Below the pieces are notes generated by a model, which saw only the letters and a list, made by a program, of their open reading frames with translations, did not search any database and was not told where the DNA came from. A program made the translations under genes and the position numbers. A DNA stretch of 10,197 nucleotides from a bacterium UBA3734. Lineage in GTDB: Bacteria; Bacteroidota; Bacteroidia; Bacteroidales; Bacteroidaceae. This document shows, piece by piece, positions 4,616-10,196 of the stretch. The stretch's first letter is position 1. Each line of letters begins with the position of its first letter. The DNA is taken from NCBI GenBank assembly GCA_002372575.1, contig DFHC01000125.1, forward strand, positions 1,025-11,221, written 5' to 3'.

Positions 4616-6400
4616 CTATCTGACCACAAACTTCCTGCCTTTTTTCATGTAGATGCCCTTTCGGAGCGTAGTTTCAGACATTCTCCGACCCTGCAAATCG
4701 TAGATTTCACCGCTTTCTGCAGGTTCTGTGGCAGCATTCTCGATGCCCAGAGTCGTGATGTCCTTCAGAAAGTCGAAGGTGATGATGCCGTCGTTCTCCT
4801 TAATGTTATATAGCGGCTTTTCGATGGTGCAGCGATTCATCTGCACCGACAGCAGTTGCGTGACATTCTGAGAGCCGGGATAGGGGTCGCCGGTGTGGCT
4901 GTAGCGATATTCCGCGGTGCTGTAGGGCTTGTCAGCCGTTTTTTTCGCCTCGTCGCTTCCATAGGTGCGATAGGAGCTGATGATGAGCCCGTCGGCAGGA
5001 GCGAGTGTGATGCCTGGCTTTCCAGCAGTGTTGTTGGGATAGTCGCCCAGATTCACGCTTGTGAACGGTGTTCCGCTGGCGTTGCTGTAGTCGATGCGAT
5101 AGACCAGCAGGCCGTGGCATTGCAAATCGTCTTGACCAATGATTCCGCTGGCCCATCCCGTGTTTTGCAGGTTCTGAAGAATCAGGTATTCGTCGTTCGT
5201 ATCGGAATTGATTCTGTAGAATTTGTCTTCGGGAAGCGTGATTTGCGCCTCTTCGGTGAGTTCTTCGATTTCAGCCCAACCCATCACCTCTTTTTCCCAA
5301 GGCGTGTAGGGCGTTGGCGTATAGCCGGTATTGGTATATTCGCCTGCGTCCATCAGGTCCCAATATTCCAGGGCTTGATTATCTACGGCCTGTGCAGCTG
5401 CTGTGGTCGGATAGACGTCGGGCAGACCCATCGTGTGGGAAAACTCGTGGCAGAAAAGTCCGATTCCGTTGACGATTTTCCCGTATTTGTAGGTGGGGGT
5501 GAGGTTGAGCTCGTTGTTCACGCCATAGCGACTCACGGTTACGCCGTCGTAGGTGCCGCCGCTTATGGTGCCCGATTTCGGCCAGATGCAGTCGGAGGAA
5601 TTTCCCGTGATGCTCTGTGAATAGCCGGCGTAGATGATGTAAACCAAGTCCACGTAGCCGTCTTTGTCGGCATCGTAGGACGAGAAATCGACGGTGTCGT
5701 TAATGGATTCGCATGCACTCTGGATCATTTCTTTGAGGTTCACGTCTTTGGAGTTTCCTTGGTCTTTGCCGTAGTAGGCCGACGGCTTCGGGAGCGTGAC
5801 AGGACCGAAAAGGTCGAACTGTGGACGGAAAAGGCCGCCGCTCATGTCGTTGAAGTATTGCAGAACGCTGCCGTAGTTGGGTTGCACACCCTCTTCGTTG
5901 AGGTATCTGGTGAATATACGTTTGGGGTTGGACGATACGAATGTTGTGTCGGAAAACTGCACGAGGATAACCATTGCGCGAGGCTCGCCCATGTGTGGGA
6001 AGTACGACGGTTTGGCGGTGCCGATGCTGATGCGTTGCTGCATGGCTTTCAGTCGCCTGTTCGTGGCCTTGTGGAAAAATGCGTCGCGGCGGGGATGCTG
6101 TGCCCTTACGAGTTGCTGCTCACTGGCCGAGCGCTCGTGCTGGTCGTGTGCTAACTGTTGGCTGGCCATGACGTTTCCGCTTTCGTCGATTTCAGCGATG
6201 TAGAATGCGTTTTCCTGCTGTACGAGGAGCACGCCGTCGGTCGTGGTGAACCAATGGAAGTCTTCGTCGCCGTGTGCAACGACGGTGAGTTTCGTACCGT
6301 CGCTTTGCGTGATGACAACGGGTTCTGGATAGGCTTTTACGGCCCACGATGCAATCGCCGTGAGCGCGAAACTGAGTATCAGGAATAATTTTTTCATCAT
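4616..6400 (-). CDS. Secreted M6-family zinc metalloprotease with type IX secretion tail
   Basis: This 594-residue protein is an immune-inhibitor-A-like (M6) protease. A Sec signal peptide covers about residues 1-20 (MMKKLFLILSFALTAIASWA). A probable propeptide follows (about 24-120), containing FHWFTTTDGVLLV and several basic sites, including RR at 104-105 and 115-116. The catalytic domain carries HEFSHTMGLPD (318-328), with zinc ligands H318 and H322, catalytic E319 and a third ligand candidate D328, and the Met-turn WDLMDAGEY (347-355). DADKDGYVD at 243-251 looks like an EF-hand-type calcium loop. The last 40 residues (IYDLQGRR, then KGIYMKKGRKFVV) match the short C-terminal sorting motif common in Prevotella secreted proteins, implying type IX export to the surface or medium. 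The start could equally be the second ATG. The C11 protease gene lies 47 bases upstream with no promoter between, so the two are probably cotranscribed. Confidence 0.93.
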   Translation of the reverse strand: MMKKLFLILSFALTAIASWAVKAYPEPVVITQSDGTKLTVVAHGDEDFHWFTTTDGVLLVQQENAFYIAEIDESGNVMASQQLAHDQHERSASEQQLVRAQHPRRDAFFHKATNRRLKAMQQRISIGTAKPSYFPHMGEPRAMVILVQFSDTTFVSSNPKRIFTRYLNEEGVQPNYGSVLQYFNDMSGGLFRPQFDLFGPVTLPKPSAYYGKDQGNSKDVNLKEMIQSACESINDTVDFSSYDADKDGYVDLVYIIYAGYSQSITGNSSDCIWPKSGTISGGTYDGVTVSRYGVNNELNLTPTYKYGKIVNGIGLFCHEFSHTMGLPDVYPTTAAAQAVDNQALEYWDLMDAGEYTNTGYTPTPYTPWEKEVMGWAEIEELTEEAQITLPEDKFYRINSDTNDEYLILQNLQNTGWASGIIGQDDLQCHGLLVYRIDYSNASGTPFTSVNLGDYPNNTAGKPGITLAPADGLIISSYRTYGSDEAKKTADKPYSTAEYRYSHTGDPYPGSQNVTQLLSVQMNRCTIEKPLYNIKENDGIITFDFLKDITTLGIENAATEPAESGEIYDLQGRRMSETTLRKGIYMKKGRKFVVR

Positions 6401-6414
6401 CTATAACTTTTAAT

Positions 6415-6449
6415 AATTCTTAATTCTTAATTTTTAATTCTTAATTCTC
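6415..6449. repeat. Intergenic heptad array, five 7-base units
   Basis: The plus strand consists of exactly five 7-base units, AATTCTT with single changes (third unit AATTTTT, fifth AATTCTC). It fills most of the gap between the C11 protease stop (6448-6450, which it overlaps by two bases) and the M6 protease start. Read on the minus strand the unit is AAGAATT, the same nAnAATT pattern as the two arrays in valS. In this form it contains TAA in its cycle, so it could not be translated through. Confidence 0.85.
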
Positions 6450-7671
6450 AATGCGTTGCCTCCCACCACGCCGTGCGTTCCTTGCCTTTCTGGGCCACGG
6501 TGTTTCGACTCGGGTCGCTGATGGTGAGGCCCGAGAAGGTTTTTACGTCGATGTAGGTGGGCAAGCCGTAAATGTAGGAGTAGATTTGCTCTGTGTTGGC
6601 CTTGCTGACCACGGTTTTGGCGAGTTGCGCCGTGAATTTTTCGTAGAGATACGGGTCGGTGCACAGTTTGGCTACGTAGTCGCCGAGGTCGAAGAAGATG
6701 GTTTCGTCGAATCCGTCGAGAATCTGCAAATTCTCGAGTTCAGCCTCGGGCAGCGTGAAATGCTCGTTGATTTGCTTCATGACGGCTGCCAGCGACTCCA
6801 TCTGGCGGCAGTCGATGGCGGCAATGGTTCCGCAGGGAGTGCGGTAATTGGAGTAGAATTCGTGGAAGGCAGTCACCATTTCGCTGTATTTGGGTGTTTG
6901 TGTGTTGAGCGACTTCCACATCGTGGCATAGGGCATTCCCATGGCCATGATTTCGCTGGTGGAACCCACGAGAAAGTTCGTCACGTTTCGCAGTTCGTAG
7001 GCCACTTCGGCGTTTGCCATGTAGCAGTCGTCGAAGAGGATATACTGCATGTGCGTGCTCGAGAGTCGCAGTCCTTCTGACAGCGTCTCAATGTCGGTGG
7101 CATAGCGCTTGTCATCAACGCTTCCGTAGAATCGGGTTCGCTCGTAGGGGCTTCCGGCAGGCGAATTTTGCTTGACGCGCAACGCATTGCCTTTCGTTCT
7201 GTAGGGGTAGTTCTCCCAGTCCGACAAATAGGTCCATCCCACACCATGACAACCCACGATGAGCGCATAGTTGAGTGCCTCGGCAGCGTTTTTCGCGTCA
7301 TTGACGATGCCTGCGATGCCTTCGGCAGTGGTGTATTCCGTCCCGGAATAGGTTTTGATGGGCTGGTGCGTGCAGCGGTTCTTCTCGTACTTCACTTCGT
7401 AGAGTTTCGACGTCTGCCCTGACTCACTGATGAACACGAGTAGTCGTGTCTTGTTCAGCCCGTTTCTTTTGACGATGGCCGATTCAATGCTGTCGAGGTT
7501 CACGAGGAAGTGGTTGTAGAGCCCGATGTCCGATTCAGAGCCCGACCAAGGCATGAAGACCAAAACCGTCTGCTGGTTGACGCTATCGACTTCAACAGAC
7601 TCCTCGTTGCACGAAATGGCAATCATGCTGAAAAGTGCAATCAGAATGGCGGAGAAAATGGTCTTTTTCAT
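6448..7671 (-). CDS. Clostripain-like cysteine protease (peptidase C11), lipoprotein
   Basis: The 407-residue protein starts at ATG 7671, 11 bases after the valS stop; the frame stays open further upstream but only as antisense-frame translation of valS. A lipoprotein signal (MKKTIFSAILIALFSMIAIS, cysteine at 21, then NEE) should anchor it in the envelope, and the acidic residues may send it to the surface. The protease core has a VLVFMPWSGSESD opening, the catalytic histidine H142 in GCHGVGW and the catalytic cysteine C216 in FDDCYMANAEVAYEL, the usual C11 pair (DACLM-type motif, here DDCYM). Family members usually cut after Arg or Lys; known ones include clostripain, PmC11 and B. fragilis fragipain. 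The C-terminal third lacks motifs I can name. The position between valS and an M6 protease suggests cotranscription, and a role in maturing the latter is possible. Confidence 0.9.
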   Translation of the reverse strand: MKKTIFSAILIALFSMIAISCNEESVEVDSVNQQTVLVFMPWSGSESDIGLYNHFLVNLDSIESAIVKRNGLNKTRLLVFISESGQTSKLYEVKYEKNRCTHQPIKTYSGTEYTTAEGIAGIVNDAKNAAEALNYALIVGCHGVGWTYLSDWENYPYRTKGNALRVKQNSPAGSPYERTRFYGSVDDKRYATDIETLSEGLRLSSTHMQYILFDDCYMANAEVAYELRNVTNFLVGSTSEIMAMGMPYATMWKSLNTQTPKYSEMVTAFHEFYSNYRTPCGTIAAIDCRQMESLAAVMKQINEHFTLPEAELENLQILDGFDETIFFDLGDYVAKLCTDPYLYEKFTAQLAKTVVSKANTEQIYSYIYGLPTYIDVKTFSGLTISDPSRNTVAQKGKERTAWWEATH

Positions 7672-7682
7672 CTTTTTCGGAC

Positions 7683-10196
7683 TTATTTTCCTGCTTTTTT
7701 CAGTTCTTCGAGCGTCTGCCGGAGCGTGGCGATTTTCTCCTCGGCATCGCTCTGTTTCTTGCGCTCCATCGACACGACGGCCTCGGGCGCATTCTGCACG
7801 AAGCGCTCGTTGCCGAGCTTTTTCATTACGCCTGCGAGGAATCCTTCGAGGTGTTGCAGCTGCGCTTCGGTTTTCTCGATTTCGGCGGCCACGTCGATGA
7901 GGCTGCCCAGCGGCACGGCAAATTCGTCGGTGCCCACCATGAAGGTCGAGGCCGTGGCGTCTTTCTCTTCGACTGCGCTGATGGATTTCAGGTTCGCCAT
8001 TTTCGTGATAACGGCGCTGAACGGCTCGTAGGCATTTTTGCCAATGGCCTGCAGCTCGAGCTGCTCTTTCGGGGCGATGTTTTTCGACGAACGCACCATG
8101 CGCACGCCGCTCACGATTTGCTTCACCTGCTCGATGTCGGAAATCAGTTGCAAGTCGTCTTGCGTGGGAGCCGTTAGCGAAAGGCGTTCGCGCATAATCG
8201 ACTCGCCCTCGTTGCGCTCGTAGAGGTGCTGCCACAGCTCTTCGGTGATGAAGGGCATAAACGGATGCAGCATTTTCAGCAGTTTGTCGAAGAATTCGAG
8301 CGTTTTCTCGTAGGTTTCGCGGTCGATGGGTTGCGCCTCGCCATTGACGTAGGCGGGTTTCACCATTTCGAGGTACCACGACGAAAATTCGTCCCAGAAG
8401 AGTTTATAGACGGCCATCAGAGCCTCTGAAATGCGGTATTTCGAGAAAAGGTCGTCGATTTCGGCGTTCACCTGCTTCAGTTTGGCCTCGAACCAGGCGA
8501 TTGCCGTCTTGTTGGCCTCTAATTGTGAATTGTCAGTTGTGAATTGTGAATTGTCGGCAACCTTCCATCCCTTCACCAGTCGGAATGCGTTCCAAATCTT
8601 GTTGTTGAAGTTGCGTCCCTGCTCGCACAGCGCCTCGTCGAAGAGGATGTCGTTGCCGGCCGGAGCCGAGAGCATCATGCCCATGCGCACGCCGTCGGCA
8701 CCGAATTTCTCCATCAGTTCGATGGGGTCGGGCGAGTTGCCGAGTTGCTTCGACATCTTCCTGCCGAGCTTGTCGCGCACGATACCCGTGAAATAGACGT
8801 TTCTAAACGGCATCTTGCCCACGTATTCGTAGCCGGCCATAATCATTCGCGCCACCCAGAAGAAGATGATGTCGGGACCGGTCACGAGGTCGGCAGTGGG
8901 GTAGTAGTAGGCGATTTCTTCGTTCCCCGGATTGCGGATGCCGTCGAAGAGCGAAATCGGCCACAACCACGACGAGAACCACGTGTCGAGCGCATCTTCG
9001 TCCTGCTTCAAATCTTCCATTTGCAACTGCGGATTTCCTGTTTTTTCGCGAGCCATTTCCAATGCTTTTTCAGGCGTTTCTGCAACGACGTAATTGTCAA
9101 TTGTCGATTGTGAATCGTCAATTAGGTAGTACCACGCCGGAATGCGATGCCCCCACCACAGCTGACGCGAGATGCACCAGTCTTGGATGTTTTCGAGCCA
9201 GTTTTTATACGTGTTCACGTATTTCTGCGGATAGAATTTCAGTTCGCCGCTGAGCACGGGTGGCAGTGCGATGTCGGCAAAGTGCTGCATCTTGAGGAAC
9301 CATTGCAGCGAAAGGCGCGGCTCGATGGCCGTGTCGGGATTACGCTCTGAATAGCCCACTTTGTTTGTGTAATCCTCAACGCGCTCCATCAAGCCTGCCT
9401 CTTGCAGGTCTTTGACAATCTGGCGGCGGCAGTCGAAGCGATCCATCCCCACATAGAGCGGGCTCTGCTCGCTGATGGTGCCGTCGGGATTGAAAATGTC
9501 GATGGTTTCCAGCTGATGTGTCTTGCCCAGCACGTAGTCGTTGGCATCGTGGGCGGGCGTCACTTTCAGACAGCCCGTGCCGAACTCGATATCTACGTAG
9601 CGGTCTTCGATGACGGGAATTTCGCGTCCCACAAGCGGCACGATGACGCGACGTCCCTTTAGCCACTGGTTTTTCGGGTCTTTCGGGTTGATGCACATCG
9701 CCGTGTCGCCCATAATCGTCTCGGGGCGCGTCGTGGCCACTACGGCGTAATAGCCTTTTTCGTCTTTGTGGATGACGTTGCCGTTGTCGTTTTGGGGGAG
9801 GTTGGTGGGGGCTTCGCTTACGTAGTACTTCAGATGATACAACTTCGAATGCTCCTCCTTGTAGATGACCTCTTCGGTAGAAAGTGCCGTGAGCGCCTTC
9901 GGATCCCAGTTCACCATGCGCATTCCACGATAAATCAGCCCCTTGTTGTAGAGGTCCACAAACACCTTGACGACGCTTTCCGAGCGCACTTCGTCCATCG
10001 TGAAGGCCGTGCGCTCCCAGTCGCATGACGCGCCCAACTTCCGCAGCTGCTGTAAGATGATGCCGCCGTGTTTGTGGGTCCAGTCCCACGCGTGTTTCAG
10101 GAATTCCTCGCGCGTCAGGTCGCTTTTCTTGATGCCCTGCTCCGAGAGTTTCTTCACCACTTTCGCCTCCGTTGCAATCGAGGCGTGGTCGGTGCC
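7683..10196 (-). CDS. valS: Valyl-tRNA synthetase, 5' end outside the window
   Basis: About 837 residues are visible, from [14 protein letters not shown] at the window edge to the TAA at 7683-7685; roughly the first 40-70 residues, including the HIGH motif, are missing. The enzyme charges tRNA-Val in the cytoplasm. In order there are the editing-domain signature ATTRPET (9717-9737) with VTPAHDAND, the catalytic [17 protein letters not shown] (about 9128-9178), [19 protein letters not shown], the signature loop KMSKQLGN (KMSKQ at 8745-8759, a variant of KMSKS), the anticodon-binding domain ([33 protein letters not shown]) and a C-terminal coiled coil rich in Glu/Gln/Lys. GTG codons at about 10155-10160 lie inside the conserved N-terminal domain and are not starts. 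Two in-frame heptad arrays (8521-8555 and 9092-9126) encode Asp/Asn/Ser/Gln-rich loops, one right after GHRIPAWY and one ahead of the anticodon domain. The C11 gene follows after 11 bases. Confidence 0.97.
8521..8555. repeat. Heptad array inside valS (C-terminal side), five units
   Basis: Five 7-base units of the type AATTGTG/AATTGTC (one AGTTGTG) run without interruption. On the coding (minus) strand the unit is GACAATT or CACAATT, translated as [12 protein letters not shown] between the catalytic core and the anticodon-binding domain. The unit length of 7 gives a peptide period of seven residues. The corresponding place in E. coli ValRS, as I recall it, is an unrelated variable loop. Confidence 0.88.
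9092..9126. repeat. Heptad array inside valS (after GHRIPAWY), five units
   Basis: Five 7-base units, more diverged than those at 8521: AATTGTC twice, GATTGTG, AATCGTC and AATTAGG. The coding strand reads as the loop [11 protein letters not shown] directly after the conserved [11 protein letters not shown]. Compared with E. coli ValRS from memory, the distance from IPAWY to the next conserved strand (YVV here, VYV there) is about seven residues longer. Confidence 0.8.

Follow-up and report, generated by a model that had tools for sequence, protein, structure and literature searches.

The window, by which we mean the whole 10,197-nucleotide stretch of DNA that was analysed, carries on its minus strand the gene for valyl-tRNA synthetase (valS, 7683..10196), whose 5' part lies beyond the window end. 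This assignment, first made in a reading of the letters without database searches (the sequence-only reading), is upheld by matches to the Pfam domains tRNA-synt_1, Anticodon_1 and Val_tRNA-synt_C, and by a reading frame that runs uninterrupted on this strand from 10196 to 7683. On the same strand are a gene for a C11 (clostripain family) peptidase (6448..7671, the start at 7671 chosen by eye) and one for an M6-type peptidase (4616..6400, based on reading frame and domain match), with an intergenic array of seven-base tandem units (6415..6449) between them that reaches into the stop codon of the C11 gene and stops 14 bases short of the start codon of the M6-type gene. A tRNA-Lys gene (anticodon CTT; tRNA gene call) occupies 2148-2221, also on the minus strand. 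Two further heptad arrays are translated in frame within valS, one at 9092..9126 (loop 1; an 11-residue peptide) and one at 8521..8555 (loop 2; a 12-residue peptide), and a third loop, in the editing domain, contains the GC-rich dispersed element GAAGCCCCCACCAACCTCCCCC (9794..9815, minus strand), read as EAPTNLPQ.

The three arrays were recovered where the sequence-only reading had placed them, both by TRF (6414-6452, 8521-8554 and 9092-9123) and independently by our own period scan at a threshold of 16 matches in 21, and they exceed what chance would give. Markov shuffles of the window (n=500) contained no array in 498 cases and one in 2, compared with three in the real window, and codon shuffles of valS (n=2000) contained none in 1994 cases and one in 6, compared with two in the real gene. 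All three are of AATT type on the plus strand, which is nAnAATT on the coding strand of the minus-strand genes. The description of each as exactly five nAnAATT units was too strict, since units fitting AATTNTN perfectly number 5 of 5 at 6415-6449, 4 of 5 at 8521-8555 and 2 of 5 in the degenerate array at 9092-9126; every other unit differs from AATTNTN by one base. No fold was predicted for the valS heptad array.

When the protein was aligned to Thermus thermophilus ValRS (1gax), both array loops fell in or beside gapped, poorly matching stretches. The AlphaFold model of the protein is poor (mean pLDDT 56) and hints only weakly at coil for the three loops, so that the probable surface type of the array loops is judged from the alignment gaps and from the anatomy of ValRS.

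Heptad arrays across the genome and genus

The assembly of the Prevotella-like genome containing the window comprises 1.88 Mb in 187 contigs and is 58.5% complete. A strict four-unit nAnAATT pattern matched it 23 times, compared with 6 for a reversed-pattern control, and a five-unit pattern with up to 3 mismatches matched 67 times, compared with 35, overlapping matches of one array being scored separately in these counts. The excess of such arrays elsewhere in the genome bears out one half of the earlier proposal of a dispersed nAnAATT repeat; the other half, that the repeat is one nAnAATT element, is not supported, since many heptad units are present. Across 35 further genomes from the genus, the number of strict matches lay between 0 (8 genomes) and 192, and the reversed pattern is a poor control in some genomes, with reversed/real counts of 125/91 in G015, 49/2 in G006 and 51/6 in G001. 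One genome from outside the genus, belonging to another family of the order (G045), had 157 strict matches and 78 reversed ones.

A scan for any tandem period, with no preset sequence and with N runs excluded from our own contigs, was applied to the unselected contigs C1-C20 (194 kb) of this genome and to four genomes picked by hand, namely one with many strict matches (G027), one with none (G024) and a close pair (G203 and G118). Period 7 is the commonest short tandem period in the own genome, with 17 arrays compared with 7 for period 8, the next unrelated one. Its lead is also clear in G027 (36 arrays; best unrelated period 22, with 17), slight in G203 (16 arrays; best unrelated period 9, with 14), and absent in G118 (4 arrays, as for period 18) and G024 (2 arrays; 11 for period 22). 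An A.AATT core was present in 34 of the 75 arrays from these five genomes, and by our own count from the unit list an A.AATT-type core was found in 27 of the 36 arrays of G027. The remaining arrays are made of other heptamers, among them ACACTCC, AGCGAGG, ACCCATC and AACTCTC, many of which occur once or a few times. On contig 24 of G203 (joined-stretch positions 44489-44617 and 50821-50942), heptad arrays occur in inverted pairs that face each other and might fold into long hairpins.

To place the arrays relative to genes, 39 merged nAnAATT-type arrays of the own genome were examined with a simple gene caller. Nineteen lay between co-directional genes and pointed with them, 5 lay between such genes and pointed against them, 2 were between divergent genes, 3 were at contig edges and 10 were within genes, every one of them on the coding strand. 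One of the 19 was coding when inspected by eye, lying just past the signal peptide of an S13 peptidase, so that 11 arrays count as coding and 28 of 39 lie outside genes, as expected of a repeat described as usually intergenic. For heptads of all kinds, genes contain fewer arrays than their share of the DNA would predict (11 of 73, compared with 76-82% coding DNA).

Besides ValRS, the hosts of in-frame nAnAATT arrays are, by Pfam or NCBIfam matches, PurL, FolC, an M24 peptidase, the S13 carboxypeptidase, an alpha/beta hydrolase, two glycoside-hydrolase-type proteins and a protein with a sub-threshold BACON match. Two array-bearing frames had no match in either collection, and the longer one, of 497 codons, is probably not a gene. 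Heptads of other units were in frame in the unselected own contigs in a HAM1-type pyrophosphatase, a phospholipase-D-type protein, a radical SAM protein, a beta-galactosidase and one matchless frame.

Loop contents in relatives

At loop 2, relatives have an AD-IEQPEANK-like sequence where the ValRS studied here has AD, an 11-residue array stretch and EANK. The loop is longer here than in all 29 aligned relatives, by 7 residues compared with 19 of them and by 6 compared with the other 10. In wider sets, some species have a loop 2 that is as long or longer and is filled with non-heptad sequence (e.g., L302 and L312). The aligned relatives lack the contents of the array loops, contrary to the idea that all Bacteroidales ValRS proteins share the same two loops.

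A set of 124 distinct valS genes contained seven coding period-7 arrays above the scan threshold, with the own loop 1 array and that of L305 falling below it. All seven are at loops of variable length, five at query residues ~128-139 (in four genes), one at 548 (our own loop 2) and one at 721. Period 9, which keeps the frame, was as common in valS frames as period 7 (12 and 11 arrays). Four more valS frames (L305, L320, L323 and L324) have a heptad array, of CACTTTT units, ahead of the conserved start region.

The loops were also read by eye in 120 ValRS proteins listed of 7997 matches, with the type of repeat judged from the peptide. Among the matches listed, loop 2 was a heptad peptide in at least three proteins (P0002-P0004), a GC-rich element peptide in at least eight (P0005, P0007-P0010, P0013, P0029 and P0065), and short in P0006, P0011 and others. 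Loop 1, again among the matches listed, was a heptad-type peptide in at least four (P0006, P0031, P0070 and P0104) and an EAPxxLPQ-like peptide or variant thereof in at least 13. L305 shares the loop 1 peptide of P0070, the sole peptide match that is also backed by DNA. ValRS proteins 92-97% identical to our own differ in what fills the same places, which may be a heptad peptide, an element of the GC-rich kind or just a short loop, loop 2 being heptad in P0002-P0004 and short in P0006. The third loop of P0004 has a GC-rich element different from the one at 9794-9815.

Two other enzymes were compared in the same way. Most relatives have a RIEEYFPVDSKDAEHDPML-like stretch in PurL where the protein here has RIEEFSAIDNSQLTTDNYDPML, about 3 residues more, and the corresponding loop of L240 is longer and different. 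The M24 peptidase here is about 2 residues longer than in most relatives; it is longer still in L255 and L273, the latter carrying another tandem repeat, LVPRSSFLVPR. These alignments indicate that the arrays replace existing loops, with a net footprint of 6-7 residues at loop 2 of ValRS, of about 3 in PurL and of about 2 in the M24 peptidase. Replacements of such differing net size do not fit the insertion of a single cassette, and the unequal footprints, together with the diversity of units, speak against a single mobile nAnAATT element.

Essential genes are expected to be cleared of tandem repeats whose unit length is not divisible by three. In this case heptads sit in core enzymes, at loops that hold other repeats in other species, so that the step from non-coding repeat to protein can be observed between near relatives.

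Origin and spread of the arrays

We give about even confidence to the reading that the arrays are genome-wide seven-base tandem repeats of this Prevotella lineage, born and lengthened in place. According to this proposal, tandem duplication by slippage, with a preference for a seven-base step, would create arrays and extend them where they stand, and units with the A.AATT core would be favoured without being required. Arrays would accumulate where DNA is free to change, chiefly between genes, and within genes at surface-type loops that are already variable and presumably neutral. An array arising in a gene would overwrite the old loop, leaving a polar linker as the product, and the frame would be kept because selection removes arrays that have the wrong net length or contain stop codons. 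ValRS might hold both heptads and the unrelated GC-rich dispersed elements because it has several permissive loops.

The sister species G203 and G118 were compared over ~54.6 kb of aligned DNA, which contained five indels of at least 5 bases. Two of the five are in heptad arrays (one identified by script, one by eye), and the two intergenic arrays concerned differ in length between the species. These array indels, the diversity of units and the unequal footprints favour growth in place, which we infer to be the main route. Slippage from any seed explains neither the seven-base step nor the favoured core.

That one core is favoured keeps a second explanation viable, namely that arrays are copied between sites by template switching or by an enzyme and that the in-frame landings in loops survive. 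One core does recur at many sites of a genome, and the GC-rich elements of the same loops are genuinely dispersed, with copies at two more sites that match at 93-95% over 85-88 bases. The heptad arrays, however, have no fixed ends, leave unequal footprints and include many unit types, and we regard copying as possible but doubtful. A REP-type Y1 transposase (PF01797) was considered as the spreader and rejected, because it had no match in G000 or G027, both of which bear arrays, and was present in genomes lacking a strict array, G002 and G011 for example.

Species may instead have exchanged loop contents through homologous recombination within valS, each array having a single origin elsewhere, which would account for some of the ValRS patterns. 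P0002-P0005 differ from our own protein from loop 1 to DEDALDTW and are near identical to it on both sides, so that the segment looks imported and this explanation stays viable, and the loop 1 peptide type DNSQLTIDNY occurs in P0031, P0070 and P0104, which are overall only 82-83% identical. Recombination nevertheless relocates loops and makes no arrays, leaving those in many unrelated genes unexplained, and we consider this account unlikely.

We consider it very improbable that the arrays are functional leader elements, unstructured and placed before start codons, with the coding copies as by-products. A heptad array does precede the conserved start region in the four valS frames mentioned above, and MacGregor (2015; PMC4679880) argues likewise for TAACTGA repeats. 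Of the nAnAATT arrays between co-directional genes, 19 of 24 in the own genome and 16 of 19 in G027 are oriented like the genes, and none of 30 arrays in G027, or of 39 in the own genome, lies between convergent genes. Such forward orientation before start codons, a trait of TAACTGA repeats, was in contrast absent from a set of 28 arrays, each from a different genome and 2 from outside the genus (L034, whose array is off centre, was omitted from the 29 loci), in which 5 pointed with the genes and 6 against, and it was weak over all heptads (22 with, 16 against and 3 ties). Since orientation is strong in two genomes only, a leader function is not claimed. A strand rule taking the G-poor strand as the sense strand was also discarded, with 22 arrays in agreement and 16 against. 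The degenerate state of the second valS array (9092-9126) might hint at chance, a codon-usage artefact or assembly error, which the rarity of arrays in both kinds of shuffle and the identical loop 2 peptide in a separate protein record (P0004) make scarcely credible.

The nearest known systems are heptameric repeats and Rickettsia palindromic elements. According to PMC4692102, heptameric repeats are over-represented in bacteria and had been little studied, with no detailed literature, and the arrays resemble the heptameric simple sequence repeats described there in having a seven-base unit and few units per array, and in being dispersed and mainly outside genes; their seven-base period exceeds chance, and the length of intergenic arrays varies between close relatives. 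The same paper describes the GGGNATC heptamers of Xanthomonas and Nostoc as G-rich, quadruplex-capable and under-represented in genes, whereas the units here are AT-rich or mixed and the arrays take over loops in essential enzymes. According to PMC4679880, TAACTGA direct repeats occur in Beggiatoaceae, Cyanobacteria and some Bacteroidetes, are frequent before start codons and differ in length between strains in steps of seven. The arrays here are similar in being made of heptamers, with some before start codons and some within reading frames, but the unit is another one, and the coding copies of TAACTGA are found chiefly at the ends of proteins or in hypothetical proteins of small size. The TAACTGA unit was absent from the unit list of the 75 arrays, and the units in the window are of AATTNTN type. 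We found no report of repeats of this kind in Prevotella in the open-licence literature. The system offers a place to study the bacterial preference for seven-base tandem units.

GC-rich elements and the DUF559 module

A nuclease may lie behind the GC-rich elements that share these loops. The sequence GAAGCCCCCNCCAACCTCCCCC has 4 exact matches in the own genome; allowing up to 3 mismatches gave 19, a count that carries little weight because the reversed pattern gave 14. Among 12 loci examined, the long frames with the GAAGCCCCCNCCAACCTCCCCC peptide are MnmA, ValRS and PriA. A second GC-rich element, LSSPEGD, lies in PurL and folds into a hairpin (z -4.53). Its two further copies, 93-95% identical to it along 85-88 bases, are in GuaA and a partial ArgRS-like frame, so that three unrelated genes (L105 purL, L395 argS-like and L396 guaA) contain one palindrome, read as APLSSPEGDTNVQ..EAPSGAVGG. 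It was found in PurL of none of the other aligned relatives, and the PurL of one genome (L243/L248) has the peptide NSQLSTFNSQL in its place.

Rickettsia palindromic elements, to which the sequence-only reading had likened the arrays, are palindromes of ~150 bp translated in frame in unrelated housekeeping genes, according to PMC10969869. The likeness holds for the outcome, since both the heptads and the LSSPEGD element in PurL are in frame in unrelated conserved genes and absent from the orthologues aligned. It does not extend to structure, the heptad arrays being ~35 bases long and unfolded, and on that account the GC-rich LSSPEGD element, which folds, is the nearer counterpart.

In PriA (L402, own contig C140), two copies of the GC-rich element form a 35-base inverted repeat, differing at 2 positions, on either side of a nuclease-like DUF559 module, all of it within one frame of 906 codons. 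A search of 12 genomes (13 with our own) found DUF559 at 8 places, 4 of them small frames and 4 inside a larger conserved frame, where the modules are in frame and have GC-rich ends, the hosts being PriA and a CCA-adding-type enzyme (own genome, L402 and L397 on C115), a DegT aminotransferase (G001, L404) and LeuRS (G037, from another family, L399). When inverted repeats were sought within 250 bases of each module and compared with 283 control pairs from our own contigs, which scored up to 7, three places scored above all controls (26, 24 and 12), one tied the maximum (7), one was marginal (3) and three had none. For the DUF559 module in the DegT gene, the GC-rich ends were recognised by eye, and the script gave no inverted repeat. 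We found no report of DUF559 with inverted repeats in the open-licence literature, and these arrangements are suggestive of the module as a source of the GC-rich elements.

Taken with the heptads, they lead us to a tentative proposal, held with somewhat less than even confidence, that permissive loops in essential enzymes of Prevotella (ValRS, PurL, FolC, GuaA, MnmA, PriA, the CCA-adding enzyme and others) are standing acceptor sites, rewritten on the time scale of species by two unrelated repeat families. One family would be the heptads. The other would be a mobile element that, when complete, consists of a DUF559 nuclease module flanked by GC-rich inverted repeats and is read in the frame of its host gene, and whose short remnants would be the peptides EAPSNLPQ, PLSSPEGD and LTPNPSPKGEG in loops of ValRS, PurL and FolC. 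If true, this would be Rickettsia-like protein change by selfish DNA, nuclease included, in an abundant gut and rumen genus. A single FolC of the own genome (L100) contains three different translated repeats, namely a weak heptad array, LTPNPSPKGEG and LPSLLGEGAGERPS.
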